Source of the DNA: an uncultured Solirubrobacteraceae bacterium
GTDB lineage: Bacteria; Actinomycetota; Thermoleophilia; Solirubrobacterales; Solirubrobacteraceae
Reading direction: 5' to 3'
DNA length: 45,411 bases
Assembly: GCA_902806175.1 (NCBI GenBank)
Contig: CADCVQ010000163.1
Coordinates: 1 to 45,411, forward strand
Part shown: positions 9,456-31,899 of the stretch, one piece after another
Layout: each line of letters opens with the position of its first letter
Position numbering within the stretch: position 1 is the stretch's first letter
Translations under genes and position numbers: made by a program
The notes under the pieces: generated by a model
What the model saw: the letters and a program-made list of their open reading frames with translations, nothing else
What the model was told of the DNA's origin: nothing
The model's database searches: none

Positions 9456-9478
9456 TGTGGCTTGCCGCGCATGACCGC

Positions 9479-11883: not shown

Positions 11884-12535
11884 TGAGAACGCGAGGCCCA
11901 TCGTTTCTGAGCGCGGCGCTGCTCTGCGTGGCGCTCGCGCCGGCGGGCTGCGGCGATAAGAAGACAGAGACCGAGGGAAACTCCCCGCCGCCGGGTGAGA
12001 CCTTCGCGGCCGATCACCTGCCTCGCTTTCTGCTGAAGCCGTCTGACCTGCCCTCCGGCTACAAGAGGCAGCGCCGCTCCGCTGGATCGCCCGCAGACCT
12101 CGTCGAGGCCGCCGAGACCGCCGAGGAACGGTCGTTTGACCAGTTGGCCCCGGGCCTGAAGAAGTACTCCTCTGTCACCTATCGCAAGCAGGAAGGAGAC
12201 AACAGCAACAGTCCGGCGTCGTTCGCTTTGCTGTACGAGACCCCGGCGGCGGCGGCGAACGCGCTGCCTGCAGTGAGGAGGCTCCTGGTCGACGAGTTCA
12301 GCATCACCGGCGCTTTTGAGGAGGAGCCGCCGCAGCGGCTGCGCCTAACCGGTCTCGGGGATGGAGCGGCAGCCGGCGTCAAGCTGCCGATCGGACCGTT
12401 CGCCTTCTTTCTGTATGTCTGGCGTGCCCGCAAAGTCGTCGTCACCGTCGGTGGCGCCGACACCGTCGGCGACATGAGCCGCAAGACAACTTCTCACGAT
12501 GGGCCAAGAAAATCGACTATCGAGCAACCCGCTGA
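11883..12535 (+). CDS. lipoprotein, paralogue of the 16.2-16.9 kb gene, 3' frameshift
   Basis: Starts at ATG 11883 with a lipoprotein signal peptide and lipobox ('LLCVALAPAGC', Cys near residue 23), so it is probably anchored outside the membrane. The body ('FLLKPSDLPSGYKRQ', 'YSSVTYRKQEGD', 'PFAFFLYVWRARKVVVTVGG') parallels the gene at 16.2 kb. The reading frame as given runs on out of phase to 12911. A shift of one base near 12488 gives 'FSRWAKKIDYRATR-stop' (TGA 12533-12535), matching the paralogue's ending 'IANRIDDRATRD'. So either a late frameshift or a sequencing error. No characterised family recognised; it resembles solirubrobacterial hypothetical lipoproteins. Confidence 0.68.
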
Positions 12536-12567
12536 GCGCCTGTGGCGACAGCGAGAAGGAGACCCAG

Positions 12568-14586: not shown

Positions 14587-14743
14587 GAGACGGAACCGGC
14601 GGCGAGTCGGCTATCAGCACCCCAGGCCGACGCCCAAGCCTGATCGCGATCGTCGAGCGGCTGCGTCTGATCATGTTCTACTCGGAGGTGACGTTCGGGA
14701 GAGCAAGAGAAACCTCGGGCTGCGGGGCTCCGCGCGTGACCGC

Positions 14744-14800
14744 AGCATGCCGCCGCGGTTGGCGCCTCGCGTCAGGGAGCACCCTGAGATCGCACCCTGA
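14744..14800 (-). promoter_or_regulatory. dispersed promoter module, copy E
   Basis: Minus strand TCAGGGTG at 14800-14793 and 14787-14780 (13-bp period), GACGCG (14773-14768), 18 bp, CATGCT (14749-14744). It points to the RCC1-like gene and the MIRRSRS start remnant at 14674. It lies in a block of over 300 bp duplicated at 9455-9770. Confidence 0.8.
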
Positions 14801-14897
14801 ACTTCGGCCACGGCCCTCTCCGTCGTGCCGCGCCGGGCACCACCGCTTGACTCCTGCCTGCCAGCGAGTCTCGCGCGCCGGCAGGCTCGGCTGCGGC

Positions 14898-16208: not shown

Positions 16209-16879
16209 CTAGTCGCGCGTCGCGCGATCGTCGATGCGATTGGCGATCTCGAGGGTCGCCTGCTTGTCCTGGCCGCCGACAAAGTCGGAGGATCCCATGG
16301 TTGCAACGACGTTGCCCGCGCGCCAGAAGTACAGATAGAACGCGAAACGTTCGTCCAAGAGCCCGCCGCGAACCGTTGCCCCACGGGCCGTTTCGTCGCC
16401 CAGTCCCGAGACCCCCATGCTGTGTCGCGAGATGATGCGAGCATCCCCGGTGGCACGAGCACTGGCGATGAGCGCTCTCCTGATCAGCGGCAGCGCCTCG
16501 GACGCGCTACCGGCGTCTCGAAAGCCAAAACTCCCAGAGAAGACCTCGTTGCGGAACGTGCCGTCGCCGTCGCGAACTTCGTTTCGATAGGTCGTACCAG
16601 TGCACGCCTGCAGTCCCAACGCACGCAGGCGCGAATCACGGTGGCTTCCTCGCCGGTCTGCGACGGCAGGCAGTCGTCCCCTGTGCCGGACGTGGATCTT
16701 GTCTTCTTGTAGTCGGCGGGCAGGTCCGCTCGCTTGATCGAAAAGCGCTTGAGCTCGTCCTTGGTGAAGTGCGTGTCCGCCTGCGGCGTGCCCGTGGACG
16801 CATCGTTGTCGTTGCCGCACCCGCCTCCAGCCAGGGCGAGGATGGCGATGACGATGACGGTGCCTCGCACGCGCGTCAT
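16209..16879 (-). CDS. lipoprotein, internally frameshifted
   Basis: ATG 16879 overlaps the previous stop (ATGA). Lipobox 'ILALAGGGC' with Cys near residue 21. The N-terminal frame carries 'ELKRFSIKRADLPADYKKTRS', matching 'RFLLKPSDLPSGYKRQ' of the paralogue. Near 16625-16640 ('CGCGCCTGCGTGCG') the frame must change to continue as 'LRALGLQACTGTTYRNEV...FAFYLYFWRAGNVVATMGSSDFVGG...IANRIDDRATRD' (stop 16209). The two halves line up end to end with the 11.9 kb lipoprotein, so the gene is one unit with a single indel. Function unknown; probably surface exposed and translationally coupled to the SmpA-like gene. Confidence 0.65.
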
Positions 16880-17454
16880 GCCCCGCGATCGGTGAACAGG
16901 ATGATGACGTCGAGTACGCGCGCCTTCTTGCGCGAGAAACGATCGACGAGGAACTGCGTCTCGACGGGTCGATTGAGATAGCGGCTGCGGATCACGTATC
17001 GTCGCTCGTCGATGACGCGGTCGTGTACGCGGCGCACACGGCGCCCGTAGTGGCGATACAGCCGATCGATCGCGCCTCGCGCGAAGATCGCGTTGCCGTC
17101 GCGCAGCTTCCAGCCGCGGCCACGAAAGCCGGCGAGGATGAACATCCGGACGCGCCCGGTGTCGCCGTACCGGTAGATGTCAAAGAGGCTCGTGGCCGAC
17201 TCGAGGTCGGGCTGGTAGGACATCACGCCGTTGGCGTTCTCTCGCACCGGCGCACCCAACTCGGCGATCACCTGATCGCGGCTCATGTCCAGGCGCGCGC
17301 CACCCGCGCCGCGCCCGACCGTGATCGTCCCCTGATCGATTGCTGCGAGGGCCGGCGGCGCGTGCCAAGCAACGAGCGCCAGCACGAGCGCGCATATGAC
17401 ACCGGCGATACGCCCGCGCGCCACAGGCGTGATCCTCAGGGTTTGCAGCAGCAT
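16876..17454 (-). CDS. secreted SmpA/BamE-like small protein
   Basis: 192-residue protein from ATG 17454 with a long signal peptide ending 'LALVAWHAPPALA' (~37). The mature start 'GRGAGGARLDMSRDQVIAELGAP' has the 'G-M-(S/T)-x-x-x-V-x-x-x-L-G-x-P' pattern of SmpA/BamE-like beta-lactamase-inhibitor-fold domains. It is followed by 'DIYRYGDTGRVRMFIL' and a basic C-terminal part ('RVHDRVIDERRYVIRSRYLNRP'). In a Gram-positive-type actinobacterium the role is not outer-membrane assembly; function unknown. It heads a three-gene unit behind promoter copy F, with 4-bp overlap to the lipoprotein gene. A deleted paralogue heads the copy-D unit. Confidence 0.7.
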   Translation of the reverse strand: MLLQTLRITPVARGRIAGVICALVLALVAWHAPPALAAIDQGTITVGRGAGGARLDMSRDQVIAELGAPVRENANGVMSYQPDLESATSLFDIYRYGDTGRVRMFILAGFRGRGWKLRDGNAIFARGAIDRLYRHYGRRVRRVHDRVIDERRYVIRSRYLNRPVETQFLVDRFSRKKARVLDVIILFTDRGA

Positions 17455-17501: not shown

Positions 17502-17558
17502 ATGGTCGCCCTGTGAGGGGGTCTTCGCATCGGGGAGCACCCTGAGATCGCACCCTGA
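17502..17558 (-). promoter_or_regulatory. dispersed promoter module, copy F
   Basis: Minus strand TCAGGGTG at 17558-17551 and 17545-17538, CTCCCC, GATGCG, 18 bp, GACCAT (17507-17502). The start codon at 17454 lies about 48 bp further on. Confidence 0.82.
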
Positions 17559-18153: not shown

Positions 18154-19812
18154 TCAGCGACGCCGGATCTGAAAGCGCGTGCGTTCCGGTCGCGATCTGT
18201 TGCCGGCGGCGTCGGTCGCGGTCGACTGGAGGCGGTAGCGGCCGGGCGCGAGCTTGCGGTTGCGTAGGCGCCCGCTGAACTTGAAGCTGTTCTGTCCGCC
18301 GGCGCCGGGGTGCGTGAAGCTGCCGCGCAGCCTGCGGTAGCGGGTGCAGCGCCTGGCGCGGCGGTTCGAGCGCTTGGCCTTGACGCAGCGCCCGCCCGCG
18401 CGGCGACCGCTGTCGGCGCGCTGCACGGTGAACTTCACGACGCCCGGCTCAGACAACCTGTAGGAGACCCTGCTGCCGCCCCGGCGGACGATGCTCGCGC
18501 CCTTTCGGGCCGCGGCGAAGCGGCTGGGCGACAGCGACAGCGCGCTGAGCAGCGGCCTCGTCGTGTCCTTTGCCGGCGGCGGAGGCGGCGGAGGAGGCGG
18601 CGGCGGGCCGCTGCTCGGCTCGGGCTGCGGATCGAGCGCCACGACCTGGACCGTGAAGGTGTCTTCCGTCCAGGTGGCAAAGCCGCTGCCATCGGGCGCC
18701 ACCGCGATCTGCGGATCGTCGTAATCGCCATGCAGCGCCAGGTTCAGCACCGGGCCGTACGTGGCGCCGCCGTCGGTCGACCGGCGATAGCGCAGGCGAC
18801 TGTCGCCGAAGTGCGAGTCCCAGATGACATGGGGGCCAGAGCTGTCGACCGCGATGTCGGGATTGCTGACGTTGGCGACCGGCGGTGGTCCATCGATCGA
18901 GGGCGCCTCGAACACGTCGCGCTGCACGATGGTCTTCGGCACCTCGAACTGCTTGGTCGCCGGGTCGTAGCGCTGCGCGATGATCTGCTCCTGCTCGGGT
19001 GCTCCCACGGCAAAGCGCCGGAAGGTGAGGAAGACGCCCGCGCCGCCGGCGCCGAGTGAGGGGTCGGAGTAGGTCTCGCCGGGGGTCGTCGGCTGCGCGC
19101 CGCTCCAGGTGCCGGTGTTGATGCTCGCGGCGGTCAACGCTCCGGAGAACACGGAGAACGAGATCGAGTTAGAGCTGTTGACGGCGACGAGCTGGTTCTG
19201 GCCCGGCACGCGCACGACCGACGGAGAGTCCCCGCTTGGCAGCACCGTTCTGGAGGGGGTCGTCGGCGCGGTGGGGCCGGCGACGATGTTGCTGTTGTGT
19301 TCGTCGTTGCCGTTCCCCATTGCCACTGCGACGTCGCCGCTCTCGACGTAGGCGCCTGCCGTCATGTAGACGGTTTCTGCGATCTTCACCGGCGCCCCGA
19401 ACGACGCTCCGTTGTCCGTCGAGATCCAGCGAAAGATGGCGTTGGTATAGGCGCTGTAACCGCCGAGGATCACGACCTTGCCCGGCGCCGGTGCGAAGAC
19501 CTGCGGAGCGTGGCGGAATACGTCAATCTTGAGTTCACTCGGCGGAAAGTTCACGTGCGTGGTGCGATCACACGCCGTCGCGTTCCTCCGCACGCGGCAG
19601 TAGCCGACGCGGTCGTCGCTGCCGTCGCTGGGTGATTCGGACCACACGACGTGTCCCACGCCGTCGGCGCCGACGGCGACCTGCGGGCGCGCATCCTCGT
19701 TGCCGAAGCCGGCATCGAAGGGGATCGCCGCCGGCGCCGGCACGGCGAGGACGAGCGCGAGGACGGTTGCGCCCAGGCTCGTCGCAATCATCGAACGGCT
19801 GCGTCTGATCAT
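18154..19812 (-). CDS. secreted beta-propeller-like (sialidase-fold) protein with C-terminal beta domain
   Basis: 552 residues from ATG 19812. Signal peptide 'LGATVLALVLAVPAPAA' (cleavage ~29). Residues 30-390 hold repeated beta-propeller blades of the BNR/sialidase type: 'ARPQVAVGADGVGHVVWSES', 'FRWISTDNGASFGAPV', 'RYRRSTDGGATYGPVLNL' and 'DDPQIAVAPDGSGFATWTED' carry the S-x-D-x-G-x-x-(W/F/Y) Asp-box. A Pro run links to a ~130-residue C-domain with paired Cys ('AGGRCVKAKRSNRRARRCTRYRR' region) and 'GRLRNRKLAPGRYRLQSTATDAAGN', shared with the FG-GAP protein at 20-22 kb. Probably wall-associated; no sialidase active site was identified. Promoter copy G. Confidence 0.76.
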   Translation of the reverse strand: MIRRSRSMIATSLGATVLALVLAVPAPAAIPFDAGFGNEDARPQVAVGADGVGHVVWSESPSDGSDDRVGYCRVRRNATACDRTTHVNFPPSELKIDVFRHAPQVFAPAPGKVVILGGYSAYTNAIFRWISTDNGASFGAPVKIAETVYMTAGAYVESGDVAVAMGNGNDEHNSNIVAGPTAPTTPSRTVLPSGDSPSVVRVPGQNQLVAVNSSNSISFSVFSGALTAASINTGTWSGAQPTTPGETYSDPSLGAGGAGVFLTFRRFAVGAPEQEQIIAQRYDPATKQFEVPKTIVQRDVFEAPSIDGPPPVANVSNPDIAVDSSGPHVIWDSHFGDSRLRYRRSTDGGATYGPVLNLALHGDYDDPQIAVAPDGSGFATWTEDTFTVQVVALDPQPEPSSGPPPPPPPPPPPAKDTTRPLLSALSLSPSRFAAARKGASIVRRGGSRVSYRLSEPGVVKFTVQRADSGRRAGGRCVKAKRSNRRARRCTRYRRLRGSFTHPGAGGQNSFKFSGRLRNRKLAPGRYRLQSTATDAAGNRSRPERTRFQIRRR

Positions 19813-19873: not shown

Positions 19874-19930
19874 AGCATGCCGCCGAGGTTGACGCCCCGC
19901 GTCGGGGAGCACCCTGAGATCGCACCCTGA
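19874..19930 (-). promoter_or_regulatory. dispersed promoter module, copy G
   Basis: Minus strand TCAGGGTG at 19930-19923 and 19917-19910, CTCCCC, GACGCG, 18 bp, CATGCT (19879-19874). Divergent partner of copy H, 146 bp apart. About 60 bp are shared with copies A and E. Confidence 0.82.
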
Positions 19931-20076: not shown

Positions 20077-20135
20077 TCAGGGTGCGAATCTCAGGGTGCT
20101 CCCCGATGCGGGATGCACGCTCCCGCGCCGATGAT
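20077..20135 (+). promoter_or_regulatory. dispersed promoter module, copy H
   Basis: TCAGGGTG at 20077-20084 and 20091-20098 (14-bp period, one extra A), CTCCCC-like link, GATGCG (20105-20110), 19 bp, GATGAT (20130-20135). The start codon is at 20171. Confidence 0.78.
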
Positions 20136-20170: not shown

Positions 20171-21973
20171 ATGCAGACGAAGCTTCGCTGTTGCGCGGTT
20201 CAGGTGCGCATCGTGATCAGGCTAGGCGCCCGCCATCCCGCTCGCGTGCTGGTCATCGTCGCCGTGGCGGTGCTCGGCTTGGCGCTTCCCGCGCCCGCAT
20301 CCGCACTCGAGCAGAAGCTGACGGCTTCGGATGGCGCGCAGTTCGACGGACTCGGCGCCTCGGTTGCGATCGACGGCGACACAGCCGTCGTCGGCGCGCC
20401 GGGCGCGAACCGCAACATCGGCGCCGTCTACGTCTTCGCGCGTGCAGCTGACGCGTGGATCCAGACTGCCAGGTTGACCGCTTCAGACGGCGAGCCGTTG
20501 GACGAGCTCGGCTCTTCGGTCGCGATCGATGGTGACTGGATCGTCGCCGGTGCGCGCGGCGACGACGCCGGCTTCACCCGAGACGTCGGCTCGGTGTACG
20601 TGTTCGCGCGCACGGGAGCCGCGGCGCGCTCGGAGTCCTCCAAGCTGGGGGCTTCGGACGGCGCGCTGCTCGACGGGCTCGGCTCCTCGGTGGCGATCGA
20701 GGGAGACACGATCGTCTCCGGCGCACCCGGCGACGACGTCGGCACGAGTGCAGACGTGGGCTCCGCATACACGTTCTCGCGCGTGGGCGCCGCGCGCGGC
20801 TTCACGGGCCAGACGGCGAAGCTGACGGCGTCGGACGGCGCGCCGTTCGACGAGCTTGGCTTCTCGGTCGCGATCGACGGCGGCTGGATCGTCGCCGGCG
20901 CACCCGGCGACGACGTAGGCGCCAATCAAGCTGCGGGCTCTACCTCCATCTTTGCCGGCACGAGCGATGCGGCGCGTTCGGAGATCGCGAAGGTGACGGC
21001 ATCGGACGGCGTGCAGTACGACAGTCTCGGTTCGTCGGTCGCGATCGCGGGCGACATGAACGTCGCCGGCGCGGCCGGCGTCGCCGGCGCCGACGAACGC
21101 CCGGGCTCCGCCTACACGTTCTCGCGGGCGGGCGCCGTGCGCGGCTTCAGGAGGCTGACGGCGAAGCTGACGGCGTCGGACCGCGCACCCTTCGCCGAGT
21201 TCGGCTCGTCGGTCGCGATCGACGCAGACGTGATCGCCGTCGGCGCCCCCGACGGCGCCCGCTCCACGCCGGACGTGGGCTCCGTCTACACGTTCGCTAC
21301 GGGCGACGACGCGGCGCGCACCGAGACCGCGCGCCTGACTGCCGCTGACGGCACGACCGGCAACTGGTTCGGCTCGTCGGTCGCAATCAGCGGCGGCACG
21401 ATCCTCGCCGGCGCCCCCGGCGAGGACGTCGGCGCCAACCGAAACCAGGGGTCCGCCTCGATCTTCTTCACGCCGAGCCTCCTGCCGCCCGCCGCGCCGC
21501 CCGGTCCCGCGCCGGCGCCCGCCACGCCATCGTCGCCGACGCCCCCAATCCGATCAGCGATCTCCCGCCCGTCGATCAGCGGCTTTGATTTCTCACCCGA
21601 CGTGATCGCCGTCCCGAAGCAAAGGACGCGGATCTCCACGGGCGCCAAGGGTGGGCGCTTCAAGTACACCCTCAGCATCGACGCGCGGATCACGATCATG
21701 GTCGAGCGCAAGCTATCCGGCCGCCGCGCGGGGCGGCGCTGCGTCAGGCCAACACGCCGCCTCACACGCAAGTGCACCCGCTACCAGCGCCGCGGCGCGC
21801 TCGACCACTCGGGTAGAAGCGGGCCGAACACGGTCTTCTTCAGCGGCCGGATCGGGCGGCGGGCACTTGCGGCGGGCTCCTACCGCGCCACCATCACAGC
21901 GACGAACGCCGGCGGTGCCTCCACGCCCCGGGCGACGACGTTCAGGGTGGTGCGCGCGAAGCAGCGCCGATGA
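20171..21973 (+). CDS. secreted FG-GAP (integrin-like) repeat protein
   Basis: 600 residues from ATG 20171 (GGGAGA in front). Signal peptide around 'VLVIVAVAVLGLALPAPASA' (~25-45). Then about seven ~55-residue FG-GAP blades: 'LTASDGAQFDGLGASVAIDGDTAVVGAPGANR' and its repeats ('LGSSVAIDGDWIVAGARGDD', 'LGFSVAIDGGWIVAGAPGDD'), which would close a beta-propeller. After a Pro-rich linker (~440-465) comes the same ~110-residue C-terminal domain as the 18-19.8 kb protein, with 'RRAGRRCVRPTRRLTRKCTRY' and 'GRIGRRALAAGSYRATITATNAGG'. Likely an adhesive surface protein. It is convergent with the LAL regulator, 17 bp apart. Confidence 0.8.
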   Translation: MQTKLRCCAVQVRIVIRLGARHPARVLVIVAVAVLGLALPAPASALEQKLTASDGAQFDGLGASVAIDGDTAVVGAPGANRNIGAVYVFARAADAWIQTARLTASDGEPLDELGSSVAIDGDWIVAGARGDDAGFTRDVGSVYVFARTGAAARSESSKLGASDGALLDGLGSSVAIEGDTIVSGAPGDDVGTSADVGSAYTFSRVGAARGFTGQTAKLTASDGAPFDELGFSVAIDGGWIVAGAPGDDVGANQAAGSTSIFAGTSDAARSEIAKVTASDGVQYDSLGSSVAIAGDMNVAGAAGVAGADERPGSAYTFSRAGAVRGFRRLTAKLTASDRAPFAEFGSSVAIDADVIAVGAPDGARSTPDVGSVYTFATGDDAARTETARLTAADGTTGNWFGSSVAISGGTILAGAPGEDVGANRNQGSASIFFTPSLLPPAAPPGPAPAPATPSSPTPPIRSAISRPSISGFDFSPDVIAVPKQRTRISTGAKGGRFKYTLSIDARITIMVERKLSGRRAGRRCVRPTRRLTRKCTRYQRRGALDHSGRSGPNTVFFSGRIGRRALAAGSYRATITATNAGGASTPRATTFRVVRAKQRR

Positions 21974-21990: not shown

Positions 21991-24900
21991 TCACGCTGCG
22001 CCCGGCAGCGTCGTCTTGAGCTCGGCGCGCGAACGGATGTCCAGCTTTCGGTAGACGTGACCGAGGTGGGTCTCGACGGTCTTGAGGCTGACGAAGAGCG
22101 CCTGCGCGATCTGCGGGTTCGAGAGCCCGTCGGCGGCCATCTGAGCGACGTGGCTCTCCCTCGGCGTCAGCGCATCCGACCCGCCGGCGGCGACGCGGCG
22201 CGGCCGGTCGCCGATGGCGTCGAGCTCCTCGCGCGCCCGCTCGACAAGCGCGATCGCGCCGCAGCTGTCGGCGAGCTCGAGCCCTCTTCGCAGCGGCTCG
22301 CGGGCGTCTCTGCGGCGCCCCCGGCGTCGGGTGGCGGCGCCCAGGTCGACGAGCGCCCGCGCGTGCTCGAGTCGGGCGGAGGAACGCTCGAGCATCGAGA
22401 CCGCTTCTGCGAGAAGCGCAAGCTGTGCTTCGCCCTTCTCCAGGAGACCGTGCGCGCGCAGCGCGATACCGATCGCGCGAGGCGCACCGAAGGCACGCGC
22501 GAGCGCCAGCTCACGGGCGACGAGCCGGCGTGCCTCGCCGTGCTCGCCCAGCGCCGAGTGGGCGATGGCCGCGCGCGAGCGCCAGGCGCTGAAGGCGGGG
22601 TTGGACGCCCGCCAGTCTCGCTCCCTGCGGCCGTATTCGCGGAAGTCCGCGAGCGCCTCGCCGGTGCGACCCTGCGCGAGGCGCAGCGCGCCGCGACTCT
22701 CGAGCAGGTCGTTGAACGTGATGTCGTCGGGGATATGGCGTCCGTGCTCGTGCTGCTCCAACACCCGCTCGGCCTGCTCGATCTCGCCGAGCTCGATCAG
22801 CGCGTCGATGAGCTGCGCGAGCGCGTTCGCGGGCCCGAGCGCCCAACCATGACGACGTTGCAGATCGACCGCCGCCGCCGCCTGCGTCTGAGCCTCTCGT
22901 ACGTCGCCGCGTCGATAGGCCAGCGCGGAGCGCTGCACCGCGGCGGCCGCGTGGGTGATCGCAGATCCCGTTGCGCGCGCCTCGGCAACCGCCTGTCGAA
23001 GGTAGCTGTCGGCGGCGTCAAAGCGCTCGGCGCGCACCAGCAGGTAACTGGCCAGGAAGTACTGCGGCGCGCCACCGAGCCCACCCAGCACCCATCGCGG
23101 GGTCCGCAGCGCGCGCTCTGCGACGGTCGCCACCTCATCGGCGCGCGCTCCTTGGAGGGCATCGTGCCAGGCCACCTCGGCGAGCAGCCGCCGCTCTGCC
23201 GCCGTGTCGCCGGCGATGCTTGGGCGTAGCGACGTAAGCCGCGCGCGGGCCACCGCTGCGACGCCGGTGCCGCGCTTTGAGATCGCTGCGAGATCCGCTT
23301 CCAGCTCGAGCGAGAGTTCTCGGTCCTCGAGCGGGAGGGAGTTGATCGCATCGGTGAGCAGCGCGAGCGCGTCCCCGTGGCGGCCGGACATGCCAAGCAC
23401 CACGGCCAGCTCGCGCGCGACCAGGGCCCGACGCCGCGGATCGTCTGCCAGCTCGAACGCCTCGCGCAGATGATCAACGCCCGCACGCTCACCGAGGCAG
23501 TATCGAGCTGAGCCGAGCGCCACCAGGATGTCCACACGAAGCGCAGGATCGGGCGGCTCGTCAAGCGCCCGGCGCAGGAAGCGGATCGCGGCGTTCGTCT
23601 CACCTCGGCCGAGAGCCTCCTCGGCGGCGCTGCGCAGCTGCTGCACGACATGCTGGTCGCCTCCTGGCGAGGTCTCGAGCAGGTGGGCGGCGATCTGCTC
23701 GGGTGAGGCAGTTGTGGCGACCAGTTTCGCCGCACGTGCATGGCCGGCCGCCCGCTCCTGCGGCGGAAGGTCCGCATAGATCGCCCGGCGCACGATCGGA
23801 TGCACGAACTCGAGCTGTCGCGTTCGTCTGAGGATCGAGGCGCGAGTCAGCAGATCAGCCGCCTTCGTCGCCGCGTGTTCTTCGAGGCCGGCGAGCGCGG
23901 CGGCGTGGCGAAGGTCGGCGCCGTCACCGAGCAAGGCGACCGCTCGCGCGAGCGCGGCGCCGTGTGGCACCCTCGCGATTCTCATCCGCGTCGCGTGCCA
24001 AACGGTCGGCGGCCCGAGCGCGCGGACGTGGCGGGCGCCCGACTCGGTTGGAGCGATGCCGCGCGTCGCGACTTCCTGAAGGAGCGCGCCCAGCAAGAAT
24101 GGATTACCGGCCGTCGCCGCGTGGCATTCATCGGTGAATTCGGGCGCCGGCCCGCGGGCAAGGGTACGAACGACCAGTTCCGCCACCTGTCCGCGTGAGA
24201 GCGGGCGAGGGCGCAGCGCGATCGCTGACGAAGCCGACGCGATCTGGGCGACCAGCGGGCTCTCTGCGCTCTCTCCGTGGCCCAGCGCCACGAGCAAGAC
24301 CAACGGCAGCTCCTCCAGCCGTGACAGAAGCAAGACGAGGAAGCGAAGCGAGTGCGGGTCGGCCCAATGCACGTCGTCGACCGTGATCAGCAGCGGATCC
24401 CCGTCGGCGACATGTGAGAGCAACCGGTACAGAGCGTGCAGGACCGCGCACGATGCCGCGACCGCCGGCGCAGCGCCGGCGGGGTCGGTCTGAAACAGGG
24501 GCTGGGCACGCGCAGCCCCGCCTCGAAACAGCGCCTCCCACCTCTGCTCGCCCGCGTTGGCGACCGCGGGCTCGAGCAGCTGGCGCACGAGCCCGAAGGC
24601 GAACTCGCGCTCCAGCTCACTCGCACGCGCGGTGAGCGTCTTGAAGCCGCGCGCGCGGGCATCTTCGAGCGCGGCCTTGAGCAGCCAGGTCTTCCCGAGC
24701 CCAGCCGGCCCCTCCACGACCATGAGCTGCCCGCGGCCGGCGGCGGCCGCGCCGAGGGCAGCGGCGATCGCTGACGTCGCAGGATCGACGGGGGCCGGCG
24801 GTGGCGAAGGCTGATCAAGCCCTCGGGTGCCATCGGCGTGGCCGGCGCGCGACATGCAGCCTGAAGCCGCGGTGGTCCCCGGCTCAGGCAGGATGTGATC

Positions 24901-24993
24901 CGCCCGGACGCCAGCGCCCATGGCTGCTGCTGATCGAATGGGAGTGATCTGGCCGCGCGCTGGCGCGTCACGTGCATCTGAGGTCTGTCTCAT
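21991..24993 (-). CDS. LAL-type LuxR-family regulator (ATPase + TPR + HTH)
   Basis: 1000 residues. The first ~90 residues are an unusual polar leader ('MRQTSDARDAPARGQITPI...'). Then comes a MalT/STAND-type AAA ATPase with Walker A 'GPAGLGKT' (~95-102) and Walker B 'LLITVDDVHW'. A long TPR-like helical region follows, and a C-terminal LuxR HTH ('LTPRESHVAQMAADGLSNPQIA', 'SLKTVETHLGHVYRKLDIRSR'). LAL proteins are ATP- and ligand-gated activators binding direct repeats at promoters. ATG 24993 is preferred over GTG 24996 because GGGGGAA is better spaced. The stop of a 60-residue secreted peptide lies 10 bp upstream. No copy of the dispersed promoter precedes it. The usual start 'ERDAELA' of LAL ATPases is decayed here. 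Confidence 0.86.
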   Translation of the reverse strand: MRQTSDARDAPARGQITPIRSAAAMGAGVRADHILPEPGTTAASGCMSRAGHADGTRGLDQPSPPPAPVDPATSAIAAALGAAAAGRGQLMVVEGPAGLGKTWLLKAALEDARARGFKTLTARASELEREFAFGLVRQLLEPAVANAGEQRWEALFRGGAARAQPLFQTDPAGAAPAVAASCAVLHALYRLLSHVADGDPLLITVDDVHWADPHSLRFLVLLLSRLEELPLVLLVALGHGESAESPLVAQIASASSAIALRPRPLSRGQVAELVVRTLARGPAPEFTDECHAATAGNPFLLGALLQEVATRGIAPTESGARHVRALGPPTVWHATRMRIARVPHGAALARAVALLGDGADLRHAAALAGLEEHAATKAADLLTRASILRRTRQLEFVHPIVRRAIYADLPPQERAAGHARAAKLVATTASPEQIAAHLLETSPGGDQHVVQQLRSAAEEALGRGETNAAIRFLRRALDEPPDPALRVDILVALGSARYCLGERAGVDHLREAFELADDPRRRALVARELAVVLGMSGRHGDALALLTDAINSLPLEDRELSLELEADLAAISKRGTGVAAVARARLTSLRPSIAGDTAAERRLLAEVAWHDALQGARADEVATVAERALRTPRWVLGGLGGAPQYFLASYLLVRAERFDAADSYLRQAVAEARATGSAITHAAAAVQRSALAYRRGDVREAQTQAAAAVDLQRRHGWALGPANALAQLIDALIELGEIEQAERVLEQHEHGRHIPDDITFNDLLESRGALRLAQGRTGEALADFREYGRRERDWRASNPAFSAWRSRAAIAHSALGEHGEARRLVARELALARAFGAPRAIGIALRAHGLLEKGEAQLALLAEAVSMLERSSARLEHARALVDLGAATRRRGRRRDAREPLRRGLELADSCGAIALVERAREELDAIGDRPRRVAAGGSDALTPRESHVAQMAADGLSNPQIAQALFVSLKTVETHLGHVYRKLDIRSRAELKTTLPGAA

Positions 24994-25003
24994 CACGTTC
25001 CCC

Positions 25004-25186
25004 CTAGGAGGGGCCGGCGTTCGCCGAGTGATACGGCCCGCGATCGGAGCTGAGCGTGCTCTCGGTCGCCGCGGAGGCCGAGGTCGCCGTGGAAGCGGCC
25101 GCCACCACGGCCAGCGCTGCCACCAGGGCGAGCATCCAGACGCTGCGCAAGCGAGCGTACGTGCCCACGATGATCCCTCGCGTCAT
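25004..25186 (-). CDS. 60-residue secreted peptide upstream of the LAL regulator
   Basis: ATG 25186 with GGGGGAACAGC in front. Residues 1-39 are a textbook signal peptide (basic n-region, 'VWMLALVAALAVVAAAS' core, 'TSASA' cleavage). The mature peptide would be 21 residues, polar, ending in 'HSANAGPS'. No Cys and no family recognised. The TAG stop is embedded in CCTAGGGGGAA, which is also the ribosome site of the regulator gene, so the two are very likely co-transcribed and coupled. It could be a secreted signal read by the regulator or a leader peptide; neither is shown. Confidence 0.6.
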   Translation of the reverse strand: MTRGIIVGTYARLRSVWMLALVAALAVVAAASTATSASAATESTLSSDRGPYHSANAGPS

Positions 25187-25419
25187 GCTGTTCCCCCTCG
25201 TTGTGGTGGTGCTGCCATGAAGGCGATTCTCTGACTGCGGCCGACGTAACGCTCTGGTGCACACACCCAAGTCGCGCGTGGGCTTCTGCGAGATTCGCGT
25301 GTAGTGCCAACGCGACGGAAGCAGTAGGGGCAGGCGTGCTTCAACGGGCGGTGCCGCGACGTTTGAGGTGGTGCCAGCACCCGGTGCAAAGACGCCGCCG
25401 CTTACGGCACGACGAAATC

Positions 25420-25497
25420 CGTGAAGAGACGATCCTGATAGTTGACGACCACGCGACATTCCGCCGCAGCGCGCGTCTTTTGCTCGAGGCCGTCAGC
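25420..25497 (+). pseudogene. N-terminal stub of a NarL-type response regulator
   Basis: Plus-strand 'EETILIVDDHATFRRSARLLLEA' is the first strand and acidic pocket (V-D-D-H) of a NarL/FixJ receiver domain. After ~25 residues the frame loses similarity; the phosphorylated Asp, Lys and HTH parts are absent. There is no proper start codon in frame nearby. The surrounding 25187-25681 holds no other recognisable gene. Confidence 0.6.
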
Positions 25498-25681
25498 CGA
25501 GCACGAACGCGTCTTGCGAGCCTTCCGTACCCTGCAGCGCCCGGGTGAGCGGCAGCTTGCCTCCGGCGGCCTGTAGCGGCGTCGTATCCGCGCTCTGCGA
25601 GATGCACCCGCCGTGCCGGGCTTCTGCGTCAGCGTCCCGCCCAGGCGCCATCAAACACCGCCACCGCGGCACGACCAGCGT

Positions 25682-27265
25682 TCAGCGCCTCAGCGCGACT
25701 CGTTGGTCGAGCCGCGTGCTGCGGCTGGCGTCCGTCACGTTCGCGCGCAGCTTCAGAGTGCCGCGGCGCAGGCGGCGCAGCTGGCGCAGGCCGCTTCGCG
25801 TCAGCTTGACCGTCACCCGCACGGTTGCCGCTTGCGCGGTGCCCGCGTGGCCCGATCCCACCTGTGCGCGGGTCGAGGCCCGACTCCGGCGCGTGCGCCC
25901 GATGAGCTTCAGCGTGGCCCGGACGGAGCATGCGGAGAAGCACCTGACCCGGAAGCTGATGCGCCGATCGAGCAGGCTGCGGATGCGAACCCGGCGCGGC
26001 GCGCCGACGAGCTGCGGTGGCGCAACCTCAGCGACCCGCTGGGCGCCGGCCGCAGAAACCCTCACGACCTCGCGCGTCACCGCACGGTCACCGTCGGGAT
26101 ACACCGCCTGGACGCGGACCGGGTAGGTCCCCTGGCGCACCGACGAGATGCGTACCACCGGCCCGTCGCGATCGTCGAAGGCGCCATCGCCGTCGAGATC
26201 CCAGCTGTAGGACGCGCTGCCCGGCTGGCTCGGGGGCGCCGATGCCGCGGCCACGAGCTCAACCGTGTCGCCCGCCTGCGGCGCAGACGGCGACCCCGAC
26301 AACGTGACCGTCGGGATGCGCTCGCGTAGCCACTGATTGAGGGCGGGCGCACCGAGGCGCGTGAACAAGCCGGGATGTTCAGGCAGGTTGCACGCGGCAT
26401 CCCCGCCGGAGGTGGTCCCGACGAGCACGGGCTCCCCCAGCCGGTCCACCATCAACGGTCCTCCGGAATCGCCCTCACAGCCGCCCCTGTGCCCTTCGCC
26501 CGCGCACACCATGACCTCAGGCTTGAACAGGTTCGGCTCGAGCGAGCTGCACGCGGCGTCGTCGATGAGCGGGATCTTCACCTGACGCAGCTGCCGGACC
26601 CCGTCGCACCCGATGCAGGTGCGTCCCCATCCGACCAAGGTCGCGCTCGTCCCCGGCTTCCACAGCGCCGGCTCGCTCGGGGACACGAGCCGCAGCGGAT
26701 CCTGAGCGGCAGGCCGATCGAGGTGCAGCAGCGCGAGATCGTGGCTGGGCGCCATCCCCTCAGGCCACGCGAACAGCGCATGGCGGTCGACCGGGCGGTC
26801 GACGGTGTAGCGATCGGCGGCGGTGGCTTGATCGAGATCAGGCTTGCCCAGCGTCACGACAAACGTGCTCTGCGGGTCGACGCGTTCGCCCACGCAATGT
26901 CCGGCCGTCAGAAACCAGCGGCCGCTCACGAGCACCCCACCGCAGTCCGCCTTCGCGCGAAGCGTGTCGAGCGCGCCGGCCGCCGGCCACGCGGTCGTGG
27001 CGAGCTCACCGCCCGTGATCTGCCGCTCGTACGTCGGTGACCCGTTCAGGGCCACGGCCGCGGAGGGGAAGGCAAGCGCAGCCAGAGCAATGGCGAGGAA
27101 GAGCCGAGCGCGACAGCGCCCCAAAGCGGTAGCTCCGGATTCGACGCTCTCGTAGGTCTCACGGGATACGGCCGCCCTGACGCGCGCTGGTCCGGGCTGG
27201 CTCGAATCGTCGCTTGAGCAGTGATCCTTCAGCTTGTCGAAGGCCCCGGTGCTCCACAAAGTCAT
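25682..27265 (-). CDS. secreted trypsin-like serine protease with PKD-like and C-terminal beta domains
   Basis: 527 residues from ATG 27265. A ~50-residue N-terminal tail precedes a signal-anchor segment ('ARLFLAIALAALAFPSAAVA', ~53-72). The S1 domain starts at 'QITGGELATT', with the catalytic triad H123 ('FLTAGHC'), D176 ('SHDLALLHL') and S267 ('GGCEGDSGGPLM'). Residues ~340-410 are a PKD-like beta sandwich ('YSWDLDGDGAFDDRDG'). The C-domain contains 'SFRVRCFSACSVRATLKL' and 'VRVTVKLTRSGLRQLRRLRRGTLKLRA'. The propeptide cleavage motif fits family S1A. Promoter copy I lies 120 bp upstream; an alternative GTG start at 27340 would sit 45 bp from its -10. A truncated duplicate tail lies at 9.3 kb. 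Confidence 0.84.
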   Translation of the reverse strand: MTLWSTGAFDKLKDHCSSDDSSQPGPARVRAAVSRETYESVESGATALGRCRARLFLAIALAALAFPSAAVALNGSPTYERQITGGELATTAWPAAGALDTLRAKADCGGVLVSGRWFLTAGHCVGERVDPQSTFVVTLGKPDLDQATAADRYTVDRPVDRHALFAWPEGMAPSHDLALLHLDRPAAQDPLRLVSPSEPALWKPGTSATLVGWGRTCIGCDGVRQLRQVKIPLIDDAACSSLEPNLFKPEVMVCAGEGHRGGCEGDSGGPLMVDRLGEPVLVGTTSGGDAACNLPEHPGLFTRLGAPALNQWLRERIPTVTLSGSPSAPQAGDTVELVAAASAPPSQPGSASYSWDLDGDGAFDDRDGPVVRISSVRQGTYPVRVQAVYPDGDRAVTREVVRVSAAGAQRVAEVAPPQLVGAPRRVRIRSLLDRRISFRVRCFSACSVRATLKLIGRTRRSRASTRAQVGSGHAGTAQAATVRVTVKLTRSGLRQLRRLRRGTLKLRANVTDASRSTRLDQRVALRR

Positions 27266-27384
27266 GCTTGATGACCCCTTCGTGACATGTTGTCTGTAAA
27301 TACTGGCGATACTGAGCGGCTCCGGCGAGGGTGGTGGCACCCAACGCTGCTGCGGTGCCCCGGGACTCGCTCTTACCGCCGAGA

Positions 27385-27441
27385 ATCATCGACCCGCCGG
27401 CGCCCGTTCGCATCGGGGTGCGCCCTGAGATCGCACCCTGA
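27385..27441 (-). promoter_or_regulatory. dispersed promoter module, copy I
   Basis: Minus strand TCAGGGTG (27441-27434), TCAGGGCG (27428-27421), CACCCC, GATGCG, 18 bp, GATGAT (27390-27385). Divergent partner of copy J, 167 bp apart. Confidence 0.82.
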
Positions 27442-27608
27442 ACTTCGTGACCCGCGGCGCTCGCCGTTGACCGGTCTGAGCTGTGAGGTGTGGCGCTGCG
27501 CGGCACACGCGACCAGCGTGCGCCATACATTCTCGTCGGCACCCTTGAGCTCGCGCAGGTTCGCGGGACGCGCAGCGCACGGCGGGCGGAGCCGGCGGGG
27601 GCGAATGT

Positions 27609-27666
27609 TCAGGGTGCGATCTCAGGGTGTCCCCCGATGCGAGCGTCATGCGCGCCCGCGTATCTT
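27609..27666 (+). promoter_or_regulatory. dispersed promoter module, copy J
   Basis: TCAGGGTG at 27609-27616 and 27622-27629, TCCCCC, GATGCG (27636-27641), 19 bp, TATCTT (27661-27666), which is the copy closest to a standard -10. Confidence 0.83.
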
Positions 27667-27689
27667 CGCGCGGCCATTCGCTACTGGAG

Positions 27690-28334
27690 ATGGAGATAGC
27701 CTTGTTCAACCGGACCTTTCGCCGGCCGTCACCGGCCATGATCGTCGCGCTGGTCGCGCTGTTCGTCGCGCTCGGAGGCAGCGGCTACGCCGCAGTCGCG
27801 ATCAACGGCAAGAACATCAAGAACCGATCGATCGCGGCGATCAAGCTCAAGCGCGAGGTCCTGACGAGCCGTGAGGTCAAGAACGGTTCGCTGCTCGCAG
27901 CGGACCTCAAAGCAGGCCAGCTGCGCTCTGGTCCTCCCGGTCCCGCGGGTCCGCAGGGCGTTCCCGGGGCACCGGGCGTTCCCGCTCCACCGGGCGCTCC
28001 CGGTGCACAGGGGCCGGCGGGCGCTCCTGGTTCCCCTGGCGCGACGAACGTCACGCTGCGCAGGGGCACGCCCGCACAGGTTGCGGCCGGGTCTGTCCAG
28101 GACGCTAGCGCGCGATGCTTGGAGGGTGAGCGCGCGACTGGCGGCGCGAACATCACCGTTGACCAGGCGGGAGCGGGAAGCACGGGCTCCTTCGTGATCA
28201 ACAGCTCTCCGATCCTTGTCGGCGGAGAGGGGCCGGTGGCAGACGTCCCGGTTGGATGGAGGACGAGGGTCAAGAACACCGCCGCAACCGGTACCGACAC
28301 CCTGTTTGCCTTCGTCGTCTGCGCCCGCCCGTGA
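27690..28334 (+). CDS. secreted collagen-like protein
   Basis: 214 residues counted from ATG 27690; TTG 27702 (LFNRTF), with GGAG at a better distance, may be the real start. N-terminal 'RRPSPAMIVALVALFVALGGSGYAA' is the common solirubrobacterial signal-anchor. It is followed by 'INGKNIKNRSIAAIKLKREVLTSREVKNGSLLAADLKAGQL', then a G-x-y collagen stretch of ~15 triplets (~88-135) and a C-terminal ~75-residue beta domain ('CLEGERATGGANITVD...DTLFAFVVCARP') with two Cys. Likely forms exported trimers. It shares its N-terminal plan, not its C-domain, with the 12.6 kb protein. Promoter copy J. Confidence 0.8.
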   Translation: MEIALFNRTFRRPSPAMIVALVALFVALGGSGYAAVAINGKNIKNRSIAAIKLKREVLTSREVKNGSLLAADLKAGQLRSGPPGPAGPQGVPGAPGVPAPPGAPGAQGPAGAPGSPGATNVTLRRGTPAQVAAGSVQDASARCLEGERATGGANITVDQAGAGSTGSFVINSSPILVGGEGPVADVPVGWRTRVKNTAATGTDTLFAFVVCARP

Positions 28335-28397
28335 CGCTGGCAAAGCGGTCACGCCGCGTTCGTTCTGAAACGGCAGGCCCGTCGACGCGAGAAACAC

Positions 28398-28637
28398 TCA
28401 CTTGAGCAGCCTTCTACTCGAACTCGGCGGCTCCGAGTCTTCTGTCCGTTCGGTGACCGCTCGATCGGCGGAGGGCGGTCTCTGCGGCTCGCTCTCGATG
28501 AACGCCTCGAGCGTCGCTGCGAGTTCCATCCAGCCCTCGAACGCCCTGCGCTGCCCGTGCGGCTCGGCAAGCGAGCCCTTGATCGGCTCGCTGCCCGCCA
28601 CGAGCTCGAGCGCGAGGTGCACGGTTGCAGGTGTCAT
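28398..28637 (-). CDS. small conserved actinobacterial protein (unknown function)
   Basis: 79 residues. The first ~45 ('VHLALELVAGSEPIKGSLAEPHGQRRAFEGWMELAATLEAFI') fit a small family often seen in actinobacteria, with a pattern like 'L-E-L-x-x-G-S-x-P-I-x-G-x-L ... F-x-G-W-x-E-L-x-x-x-L-E'; function unknown. The C-terminal part is polar. The ATG directly follows the TGA of the upstream gene (TGAATG, no gap), so translation is probably coupled. Cytosolic. Confidence 0.68.
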   Translation of the reverse strand: MTPATVHLALELVAGSEPIKGSLAEPHGQRRAFEGWMELAATLEAFIESEPQRPPSADRAVTERTEDSEPPSSSRRLLK

Positions 28638-28844
28638 TCAAATCGTGCCTGCAACGCCCTCGCCGCGCTCGCGCTCGGGTGTCGCCGCGAACTGCCGCCT
28701 TGCCTTGTAGCCGCAGATCAGCGCTGCGATCGAACCGACGAGCGGAGCAATCGTGACGCCCGCTATGCCCGCTGCGAGCGAGGCGGTCGCCATGCCGTTG
28801 GTGGGCTGCGACTGTCGCATGTAAGGCGGGTGCCCCGCTGCCAT
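28638..28844 (-). CDS. DUF4190-like small membrane protein
   Basis: 68 residues from ATG 28844 (GGAGG in front). After a polar tail come two hydrophobic stretches in 'ATASLAAGIAGVTIAPLVGSIAALICGYKARRQ', the pattern of DUF4190 proteins (a small two-helix membrane unit ending in G-Y-x-A-(R/K)-R-Q-I). Function unknown; members are often found with secreted or surface genes. First gene of the copy-K unit, coupled to the following 79-residue protein. Confidence 0.7.
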   Translation of the reverse strand: MAAGHPPYMRQSQPTNGMATASLAAGIAGVTIAPLVGSIAALICGYKARRQFAATPERERGEGVAGTI

Positions 28845-28891
28845 CGCGTGTTGCCTCCGGTGCTGGAGATGAGACGTTTCCGAGACCACCG

Positions 28892-28948
28892 ATGATCGGC
28901 CCTCGGCGCGCCTCTCGCATCGGGGATCCCCCTGAGACTGCACCCTGA
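28892..28948 (-). promoter_or_regulatory. dispersed promoter module, copy K
   Basis: Minus strand TCAGGGTG (28948-28941) and TCAGGGGG (28935-28928), GATGCG, 18 bp, GATCAT (28897-28892). It is divergent from the LAL regulator gene that begins at 29038. Confidence 0.78.
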
Positions 28949-29037
28949 ACTTGCGCACTTCAGTTGGTCGCCCTTGCCTTGGCCCGATGCGCCGGGCTTG
29001 ATCTGCGAGCTTGATTGACGGACGATGAGCATGTTTT

Positions 29038-31899
29038 GTGACAGGTGTCCGCGCACCAACCCAACGGCTCTTGCTCGAACGCGATGGCGAGCTCGCGCAG
29101 ATCATGCTCGCCCTCGACGATGCCGCCAGCGGGAACGGGCGGCTCGTCGTGATGGAGGCGGCGGCCGGACTGGGAAAGAGCAGCCTGTTGCAAGCGGCGC
29201 TTGTGCGCGCGCGCGAACGCGGCTACGAGGCGCTGACTGCGTGTGGCTCGGAGCTTGAGCGCGAGTTCTCGTTCGGGATGGTGCGCCAGCTCTTCGAGCC
29301 CCGGATTGCGTCGGCGGGCGCGGAGGAGAGGGAGGCGTTGTTTGCCGGCGCGGCGGGATTGGCGAGGCCGCTGTGGGAGACCGATTCGGCTGATCCGCCC
29401 GCTGCGGATGCGACGTTTGCGACGCTGCATGGTTTGTATTGGCTGCTGTCGAACCTGGCGGAACGACGCCAGCTCGTCCTTGCTGTGGACGATCTGCACT
29501 GGGGCGACATTCCGTCTCTTCGCTTCCTCGCGTTTCTCTTGCCGCGCCTCGAGGAGATGTCGGTGGCGCTCCTGCTAGCGGCGCGCCCGGCCGAACCGGG
29601 CGCGCAGAGCGCGCCGGGCGCGGACATGCTCCTGTCGCACCTCGCGGCAACCGCGACCTCGATCACCGTCAGCCTGCGCCCGCTCTCGCGTGAGGCCACG
29701 GCGGCTCTTATCGCAACGCGGCTGGGCGAGGAACCGGAACCCGAATTCACAGACGCGTGTCATGCGGCCACCGTCGGCAACCCGTTCTTCATCGAGGCGC
29801 TTCTGCGGGAGATCGTCTTTCAGGGCATCGCGCCCACCATCGCTCAAGCGCCGCGCATACGCGCGCTCGGGCCACGGGCGGTGTCACGCGCTGTCGTCAT
29901 GCGGCTTGCGAAGGTGCCCGGTGGGGCTTCGCTCGCCAAAGCTGTCGCGGTGCTGGGGGAGCGAGCTGCGCTTGCGCACGCGGCGCAACTGGCCGAGATG
30001 CCCGAGGCGGCGGCCGCGCAGGCCGCGGACGCGCTTGTCCGGGCCGCGATCCTCAAGCGCGGCGCCGAGCTCGAGTTCCTGCATCCGGTCGTTCGCCAGG
30101 CGGTCTACACCGATCTGGCGCCTCACGAGCGCGCCGGACAGCACGCGCGCGCGGCGCGGATGCTCGCCGCGCACGGGGCCCATGCCGAGCGCGTCGCCGC
30201 ACAGCTTCTGCAAGCCGAGCCAGCCGGTGATGACTGGGTGGTCGAGCACCTCGCGCAGGCGGCGCACGAAGCCATGTCGAGGGGTGCGCCCGAGACGGCG
30301 GCACAGTACCTGCGACGTGCGCTTCTCGAGCGGCCGGTGCAGACCGATGGGCAGTTGCTGCAACGCCTCGGTGCCGCCGAGGCGCAGCTCGGGCACCCAG
30401 ACGCAGTGGTTCACCTCGAGCAGGCGATGCAGGCGGCGCAGGATCCGCGGACCCGTGCGCTGGCCGCGCACGACCTGGCGCTGCTGCGAGGCCTCGGCGG
30501 CGACGTGCCGCAGGCCGTGCGGCTCTTCGAAGAGGCGATTGAGTTGGTCATGGAGGACGACAGGGAGCTGGCGCTCGAGTTCGAGTCGGAGCTTGCCGCC
30601 GTGGCGATGTTCGAAGCTGCGTCTGCGCGCCACGTGGGTACGCGCGTACGTCGCCTGCAGAGCGAGGTGAGCGGTCACACCACCGCGGAGCGAGCGCTGT
30701 TCGGGCAGATCGCGCTCCTGCAGGCGATGGCATGCGCCCCGGTCGATGATGTCGCAGCGCTGGCGCAACGAGCGCTTGTCACCCCGCGGTGGCTCGTCGG
30801 GCGCGTTCCCGAGGCTCCCCAGTACTTCCACGCGCTCGCCGTTCTCGTGAGCTGCGATCGCTATGACATCGCGGCCGAGCACGTCGAGCAGGCGCTCGAC
30901 GCCGGCCGGAGCGCCGGTTCGCCGATGACGGTCGTCGTCGCCTCGTATCACCGCTCGCGCCTCGCCTATCATCGCGGCGCGCTGCGCGAAGCCGAGGCCG
31001 ACGCCGAGTATTCCGTGCAGCTCGGCAGCGGTCAGCCGTGGGGTGCGGCGAGGGCCGGTTCGCTGGCCTCGCTGCTCGAGGCGCTGGTCGACCGCGGCGC
31101 GCTCGCCGCCGCCCAGCACGCATTGACAGAGCGTGCGCTGGAGGGGCATATCCCCGACGGGCTGACCTTCAACCTCCTGCTGTACACGCGTGGCGCGCTT
31201 CGGCTCGCCCAGGGCCGTCCCGCCGAGGCCCTGGACGATCTGCGGGAGTACGCGCGCCGCGAGCACGACTGGTTTGGCGCCAACCCGGCGCTTTCGTCGT
31301 ATCGCTCGCGAGCCGCTCGCGCGCTCAAGGCGCTCGGCGACTGCGATCAGGCGCGCGCGCTCGCCGAGGAGGACCTCCGTCGCGCGCGTGCCTTCGGCGC
31401 ACCGCGTGCGATCGGGATCGCGCTGTGCACCTGCGGCGTCGTCCAAGCGGAGCGCGGGACCGATCTGCTCGAGGAGGCAGTCGCGGTGCTCGAGCACTCC
31501 GGTGCGCAATCCGAGCTGGCTCGCGCCCTGGTGGAGCACGGGACCTGGCTGCGGCGCGCCAACCGGCGCTCGGAGGCGAGAAAGCCCCTGAGCCGCGGCC
31601 ACGAGCTCGCGTGCAGCTGCGGGGCCGACGGGCTCGCGGAGCAGGCGGCGGCCGAGCTGCAGGCCGCCGGGGCGCGGCCACGGCGGCAGCTGTCCACAGG
31701 ACTTGACGCGCTCACCCCCAGCGAACGGCGGATCGCCGCGATGGCCTCCGAAGGACTGTCAAACCCGCAGATCGCGCAGTCGCTCTTTCTCAGCCTGAAG
31801 ACGGTCGAGACGCACCTGGGCAGCGCCTACCGCAAGCTCGACGTCCATTCGCGCTCTGAGCTACCGCGGTTCTTCGGGACCTCGCCGCCGGTGGTGTGA
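29038..31899 (+). CDS. LAL-type LuxR-family regulator (ATPase + TPR + HTH)
   Basis: 953 residues from GTG 29038. The STAND-type ATPase starts at once ('LLERDGELAQIMLALDDAASGNGRLVVMEAAAGLGKS', Walker A ~40-48) with Walker B 'LVLAVDDLHW'. TPR-like helices ('YLRRALLERP', 'AQYFHALAVL'-like repeats) run to ~870. The LuxR HTH is 'LTPSERRIAAMASEGLSNPQIAQ' and 'SLKTVETHLGSAYRKLDVHSR'. It is full length and intact, similar along its whole length to the regulator at 22-25 kb, and is the closest match to the broken copy at 11.1 kb. It is divergent from promoter copy K. A likely activator; ligand unknown. Confidence 0.87.
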   Translation: MTGVRAPTQRLLLERDGELAQIMLALDDAASGNGRLVVMEAAAGLGKSSLLQAALVRARERGYEALTACGSELEREFSFGMVRQLFEPRIASAGAEEREALFAGAAGLARPLWETDSADPPAADATFATLHGLYWLLSNLAERRQLVLAVDDLHWGDIPSLRFLAFLLPRLEEMSVALLLAARPAEPGAQSAPGADMLLSHLAATATSITVSLRPLSREATAALIATRLGEEPEPEFTDACHAATVGNPFFIEALLREIVFQGIAPTIAQAPRIRALGPRAVSRAVVMRLAKVPGGASLAKAVAVLGERAALAHAAQLAEMPEAAAAQAADALVRAAILKRGAELEFLHPVVRQAVYTDLAPHERAGQHARAARMLAAHGAHAERVAAQLLQAEPAGDDWVVEHLAQAAHEAMSRGAPETAAQYLRRALLERPVQTDGQLLQRLGAAEAQLGHPDAVVHLEQAMQAAQDPRTRALAAHDLALLRGLGGDVPQAVRLFEEAIELVMEDDRELALEFESELAAVAMFEAASARHVGTRVRRLQSEVSGHTTAERALFGQIALLQAMACAPVDDVAALAQRALVTPRWLVGRVPEAPQYFHALAVLVSCDRYDIAAEHVEQALDAGRSAGSPMTVVVASYHRSRLAYHRGALREAEADAEYSVQLGSGQPWGAARAGSLASLLEALVDRGALAAAQHALTERALEGHIPDGLTFNLLLYTRGALRLAQGRPAEALDDLREYARREHDWFGANPALSSYRSRAARALKALGDCDQARALAEEDLRRARAFGAPRAIGIALCTCGVVQAERGTDLLEEAVAVLEHSGAQSELARALVEHGTWLRRANRRSEARKPLSRGHELACSCGADGLAEQAAAELQAAGARPRRQLSTGLDALTPSERRIAAMASEGLSNPQIAQSLFLSLKTVETHLGSAYRKLDVHSRSELPRFFGTSPPVV

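Follow-up and report, generated by a model that had tools for sequence, protein, structure and literature searches.

The window, meaning the whole stretch of DNA analyzed (45,411 nucleotides, positions 1 to 45411 of contig C163), belongs to a 4.12-Mb draft genome of 183 contigs and contains two full-length genes for LAL regulators. LAL1 (21991-24996, minus strand) lies in an open frame that spans 21991-25062 and encodes an AAA_16 domain (E = 1.8e-19), a TPR_12 region, and a C-terminal GerE domain (2.8e-17) in a Pfam scan. Because the AAA domain begins at residue 96 of this frame, the true start is probably downstream of 25062, at about 24.8 to 25.0 kb. LAL2 (29038-31899, plus strand) likewise encodes AAA_16 (1.2e-14) and GerE (3e-15). 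Both domains exceed the cut-off in both proteins, which are about 50% identical to each other and have the same recognition helix, SLKTVETHL. The two intact LAL genes listed in the initial annotation are confirmed.

Two smaller pieces that had been described as a TPR fragment and a leader fragment are, by their DNA identity to LAL2 and LAL1, decayed duplicates. The LAL2-like TPR remnant (11102-11458, plus strand) is 73% identical to 31028-31391 and is frameshifted and broken over two frames. The LAL1-leader remnant (8971-9048, minus strand) derives from an 80-nt block 5' of LAL1 (24929-25008) that it preserves at 90% identity. It is followed by a remnant of a trypsin gene (9307-9413, 88% identical to the C-terminal part of that gene at 25672-25778) and by a copied promoter region (9465-9700, 87% identical to 14730-14966), which completes a mosaic extending from 8.97 to 9.70 kb. 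Palindromes of the CCCCTAGG type occur at the edge of the 80-nt block, which is a possible control region of LAL1. Third-position GC is about 0.70 to 0.88 across an island from roughly 7,900 to 31,900, against mostly 0.85 to 0.95 outside it, and the island holds many decayed duplicates, which suggests a fast-changing or acquired region.

The LAL genes stand among genes that mostly encode exported proteins and are almost all preceded by a module, in an array of 11 octamer modules in the window, with five more on contig C17. The module at 28892-28948 (minus strand; octamer 1, inverted repeat at 28920-28935, and -10 element GATCAT) serves an operon that comprises a DUF4190 gene (28638-28853, minus strand) followed by the gene for an unnamed small protein of 79 amino acids (28401-28637, minus strand), and this operon is divergent from LAL2. 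The statement that neither LAL gene has a module of its own is literally true, although the one at 28948 (minus strand) is separated from the 5' end of LAL2 by some 100 nt and points toward the operon on the other side. The module at 27609-27666 (plus strand), with its -10 one base beyond the usual position, precedes a collagen-like gene (27648/27627-28334), and the one at 27385-27441 (minus strand; -10 GATGAT) precedes a secreted trypsin/PKD gene (25682-27265). At 20077-20135 (plus strand) the octamer period is 14 bp and the -10 again lies one base further, ahead of an FG-GAP repeat gene (20171-21973). Genes for secreted proteins follow the modules at 19874-19930 (minus strand; CATGCT; gene 18154-19812), 17502-17558 (minus strand; GACCAT; gene 16876-17454), and 14744-14800 (minus strand; CATGCT; RCC1-repeat gene 13900-14562). 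The module at 11648-11717 (plus strand; GACGAT) contains three direct octamers at a 13-bp period and stands before a 41-amino-acid open reading frame and a lipoprotein-like gene (11883-12911), while that at 10144-10200 (plus strand; GATGAT) precedes a gene at 10221-10910. Of the two imperfect members, that at 9479-9535 (minus strand) has a degenerate octamer 2 and an intact -10 (CATGCT) and precedes a gene remnant, and that at 9995-10015 (minus strand), whose octamers lack a well-formed inverted arm and which has neither a -10 nor a clear gene, is probably decayed.

Most module genes start 36 to 240 nt downstream of octamer 1, and most encode proteins with signal sequences apparent by eye (RCC1, FG-GAP, trypsin/PKD, collagen-like, and lipoprotein). 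The second cluster, at 39814-43662 of contig C17 (9815-13663 of locus L016), precedes collagen-like, trypsin-like, and small-protein genes and has no LAL adjacent to it.

Two CACCCTGA octamers spaced by 13 bp were matched 10 times in the window when up to three mismatches were allowed, against 0.35 expected and a maximum of 2 in 100 shuffles of the window. Across the genome the pattern gave 15 matches, all on C163 and C17, and its reversed control gave none. The 16 aligned sites share the sense-strand consensus AAGTTCAGGGTG-CGATC-TCAGGGTGCTCCCCGATGCGA, which has sharp edges and little conservation just beyond them. Octamer 2 and the 8 nt after it form a 16-bp inverted repeat, TCRGGG-N4-CCCYGA, so that the module consists of three half-sites, two in the same orientation and then one inverted. 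The first octamer is the extra upstream half-site, TCAGGG, 13 bp before the inverted repeat. Of the 16 copies of this palindrome in the genome, 13 are modules.

These modules have the geometry of promoters. A NANNNT hexamer starts exactly 42 nt after the start of the GATCTCAGGG frame in 12 of the 16 sites and at 43 nt in 3 more, while any other offset accounts for 0 to 2 sites. If this hexamer is taken as the -10 element, with an assumed position of -12 to -7, the inverted repeat is centered at about -42.5 with its 3' end at about -34.5. On the same assumption the octamers start at about -63 and -50 and the inverted arm CCCYGA overlaps the -35 region. LuxR-type proteins usually target 20-bp palindromes centered at -42.5 (PMC4471428). 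The initial annotation had seen MalT-type direct repeats near -35, and this part did not hold, as it is the inverted arm that overlaps -35 and the octamers lie further upstream. A reading as direct repeats only, of the MalT or SARP kind, was dropped after the inverted arm and the fixed -10 had been found.

The small protein encoded behind the module next to LAL2 belongs to a family that we searched for separately in 146 genomes and found in 31; a deeper profile also placed it in two further families of the order. This genome has two copies (28401-28637 and, in locus L016, 13217-13399 on the minus strand). The protein matched nothing in Pfam or NCBIfam. It is predicted to adopt a β-β-β-α fold, with high confidence over residues 1 to 50, a fold search against the PDB gave no match with E below 0.9, and no plasmid match was found. 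In the relatives, this genome excluded, 40 of 51 small-protein genes have a LAL gene at a distance of 1 kb or less, and 36 of 51 have one within 250 nt. The 40 pairs are arranged divergently in 19 cases, in tandem with the LAL first in 13, in tandem with the small protein first in 4, and convergently in 4. Several of the unlinked genes are near contig ends.

The promoters of these genes resemble the module. Gibbs sampling of 53 small-protein upstream regions, carried out blind to the module, recovered the inverted-repeat half of the module with a log-likelihood of 528, compared with at most 362 in 12 shuffled sets. NANNNT stood at the equivalent offset in 35 of 50 regions, a count that leaves out this genome and the module site of genome G031, and at other offsets in 0 to 5. 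GGG-N5-CCC was present in 24 of the 53 regions against 6.7 expected, and the N4 and N6 forms were also enriched. A copy of the half-site 11 to 13 bp upstream was found in 12 of 44 small-protein promoters, including both of those in this genome, so the direct-repeat part is an option that recurs and is not peculiar to this genome.

The module proper has a narrower distribution. The initial annotation had proposed correlating the LAL orthologues with the module across genomes; such a correlation holds for the whole unit of small protein, LAL, and inverted-repeat promoter, whereas the octamer module in its exact TCAGGG form is all but limited to this genome, a few relatives having one site each. 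A pattern search of the 146 genomes of the family found many sites in this genome only, and the exact pattern gave two unrelated matches in about 85,000 species, in a scan that may omit near genomes. When relatives were searched with a sequence model of the module, an independent match (8.4e-7) came from G031, whose site was not among the sequences used to build the model. It lies 22 nt past the end of the best LAL2 homolog (590 bits) among eight relatives searched and has the 13-bp half-site period, the inverted repeat, and the -10 spacing of the module. Directly after it comes a small-protein gene homologous to 28401-28637 and to the C17 gene, both of which are behind modules. Other matches next to LAL genes are a site 64 nt upstream of the gene in G062, itself included in the model, and a site in G008 that precedes its LAL gene by about 0.7 kb. 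Among the matches listed, the TCAGGG-type sites of G134 and G135 and one in G137 had no LAL close by. Six congeners contain neither the module nor the small protein, and their readable LAL helices have VEMHL, VEVHL, or VEWHL, none having VETHL.

This last point is part of a wider relation between the recognition helix and the operator. In the paired LALs, residue x of K-T-V-E-x-H-L is T with TCAGGG or TCGGGG, N with TGAGGG, Y or F with CTGGG, and L with CTAGG or TCTCGG. In two cases (L202 and L230) a helix with R in place of K goes with TGG in place of GGG; L193 is an exception. The set comprises about 30 pairs filtered by motif score, with five operator registers set by hand; operators were framed by the -10 anchor, a rigid finder of inverted repeats with a 4-nt spacer having misplaced many sites. 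Of the 54 helix-turn-helix (HTH) columns scanned, the x column ranked first in mutual information with operator bases, both by its best single co-variation (z = 6.0) and by the mean of its three best values. In a partial Mantel test with the rest of the GerE domain removed, r was 0.42, above all 5000 permutations. Column M26 was nearly equal in the Mantel scan (0.41), and part of the co-variation is shared ancestry. A literature search for published NarL contact residues found none. Of about 50 GerE domains read in this genome, none but those of LAL1 and LAL2 have SLKTVETHL; the near helices are KTVETHV, in two response regulators on contig C62, and ATVETHL, in one LAL fragment.

Since the recognition helix co-varies with the switch sequence in the relatives, the LALs are very probably the activators of the switch, and we consider it likely that the modules are promoters dependent on a LAL activator. 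The GerE domains of a LAL dimer would occupy the 16-bp TCRGGG-N4-CCCYGA, a class II position centered at about -42.5 and overlapping -35, and the third half-site, TCAGGG, 13 bp upstream, may aid this binding. On a putative activating signal the bound LAL would recruit RNA polymerase to the weak (G/C)ANNNT -10 element and would activate rather than repress transcription from the predicted start site. LAL2, the prime candidate, would activate the module promoters, being divergent from the module of the small-protein operon and thus part of the conserved LAL, promoter, and small-protein unit. LAL1 is a paralog that does not differ in its recognition helix; it should recognize these sites as well and probably activates them too. 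The earlier proposal that the LALs activate the array is therefore well supported by promoter geometry, by LAL/small-protein linkage, and by helix co-variation, although unequally for the two: LAL2 has both a module and the conserved small protein as partners, while LAL1 is linked to the array only through its identical helix and its location. In this genome the same promoter would have been copied before roughly a dozen other genes, most of which encode exported proteins, to give an expanded regulon at two loci.

On balance, we lean toward a broader reading in which a LAL and its partner of about 65 to 80 amino acids with the β-β-β-α fold, whose promoter is the operator of the LAL, form a conserved unit in this family, the small protein also occurring in two further families of the order. 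Operator and helix of the unit would diverge together and so provide a specificity code that can be read, and in this genome its promoter would have been copied before more than 10 genes, most of them for exported proteins. The small protein may be under the control of the LAL and modulate it in turn. MalT of Escherichia coli is restrained by inhibitory partner proteins (PMC10427625), which is a precedent for such a role, not evidence of it.

The five modules on C17 that have no neighboring LAL count against assigning the array to the LALs, as do the sites of G134, G135, and G137 named above. The modules might instead be bound by a NarL-type response regulator, with the LALs as neighbors by chance. 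The helix KTVETHV of the two C62 response regulators would suit such a reader, as would the looser TCAGGGT repeats, with a 10- to 11-bp period, that occur in G021, G023, and G030 (L142 at about 8370, L144 at about 10085, and L143 at about 8970), where they precede PspC-like genes or immediately follow a GerE-type response regulator; an operator similar to that of the module may be used there by another GerE regulator. We nevertheless regard a NarL-type reader of the modules as unlikely, because a LAL is the conserved partner of the inverted-repeat promoters (the 40 of 51 above), the co-variation is with the LAL's own helix, and it is the helix of LAL1/LAL2 that comes nearest to that of the G031 LAL. 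Another question is whether the two LALs divide their roles, so that one truly activates the array and its paralog is redundant, silent, or responsive to a different signal. Here the balance is about even: the small protein is paired with LAL2 only, and in Actinoplanes one LAL deletion lowers most genes and the other has only slight effects (PMC7567727), while LAL1 and LAL2 have identical recognition helices and intact domains.

Many decayed duplicates, common flanks of adjacent copies, and low third-position GC throughout the island would all be expected if the modules were debris of repeated segmental duplication with no maintained regulon; this is improbable given that the flanks diverge while module and -10 stay conserved up to sharply defined borders, that different gene families stand behind the modules, and that the same promoter is kept in other genera. 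It is very improbable that the inverted repeat acts as an RNA hairpin, in an attenuator or leader, instead of a DNA operator. Its arms do vary together between genomes, as those of a hairpin would, but there is a -10-like element 30 bp further downstream, and in many cases the small-protein gene starts about 8 nt after this -10, so the repeat would be upstream of the transcript. Moreover, the extra half-site is in direct orientation, and the arms track the LAL helix.

The nearest characterized system to LAL-dependent activation of the array is the MalT region of Actinoplanes sp. SE50/110, where two LALs lie within a 51-gene region, a palindrome over -35 is found at 17 start sites, 34.4 nt separating its 3' end from +1, and deletion of one LAL lowers 42 of the 51 genes while deletion of the other has slight effects (PMC7567727). 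The array resembles this MRLGR kind in having a hexamer palindrome overlapping -35 at many promoters of a LAL-holding region, to judge by the fixed -10 spacing in 15 of 16 modules, the inverted repeat at about -42.5, and the LALs inside. The 3' end of the operator would be about 34.5 nt from the predicted start site, close to the value in Actinoplanes, whereas the operator there is TCATCC-N5-GGATGA, the gene content differs, and the accessible part of that report mentions neither a third upstream half-site nor a small-protein partner (PMC7567727).

Other GerE-type systems share single features with the module. The PimM-type PAS-LuxR regulators read CTVGGGAWWTCCCBAG, likewise a 16-bp palindrome with a GGG-N4-CCC core in the -35 region and a GerE-type HTH reader, but they have a PAS domain and no AAA or TPR, and their operator has other outer bases and no third half-site (PMC9774167). 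The Pfam scan found no PAS domain in LAL1 or LAL2, which places them outside that family. ComA of Bacillus subtilis, a response regulator, reads one hexamer with its GerE-type HTH in two arrangements, as an inverted repeat with a 4-nt spacer and, downstream of this, as a direct repeat with a 5-nt spacer (PMC4797271). The inverted-repeat spacer of 4 here fits the ComA-type dual operator and the direct-repeat spacer of 7 does not, and the extra half-site is upstream, with one arm common to the inverted repeat; in some relatives' small-protein promoters the direct-repeat spacer is about 5 to 7. The LALs share with E. coli MalT the LAL/STAND architecture and C-terminal GerE domain, and MalT activates from sites at -35. 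The MalT box, GGGGAKGAGG in direct or inverted repeats at -35, is nonetheless a different sequence from TCRGGG-N4-CCCYGA plus TCAGGG, and against the NCBIfam MalT equivalog (cut-off, 537 bits) LAL1 scored 47 bits and LAL2 26 bits, over the HTH only. SARPs use heptamer direct repeats in place of an inverted repeat and a half-site, and the Pfam scan found no BTAD or winged-helix match in LAL1 or LAL2 that would place them among the SARPs or SARP-LALs.

LAL/STAND activators are numerous in Actinobacteria, and to our knowledge few of them have a known operator. What is new here, as read from the sequences, is the small-protein partner, the upstream half-site, and the putative helix/operator code. 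The natural pairs of regulator and promoter in about 30 genomes would expose which helix residue reads which bases, and the targets of uncharacterized LALs could therefore be predicted. As a conserved partner, the unnamed small protein hints at a further step in how LALs are controlled, and the array offers an example of regulon growth through promoter copying.

Some further sites deserve mention. In G008, which belongs to another genus, a module-like site (L072, 5973, plus strand) stands directly before a gene for a secreted Big_13/RTX protein. At locus L107 (G066, contig C82, 42551-42606), two TCGGGGTGCACCCTGA palindromes point apart across a short spacer. Finally, a long array of 27-bp repeats of the GGxGxD, RTX-like type occupies 43800-45410 (plus strand) in an open frame that runs off the end of the window.
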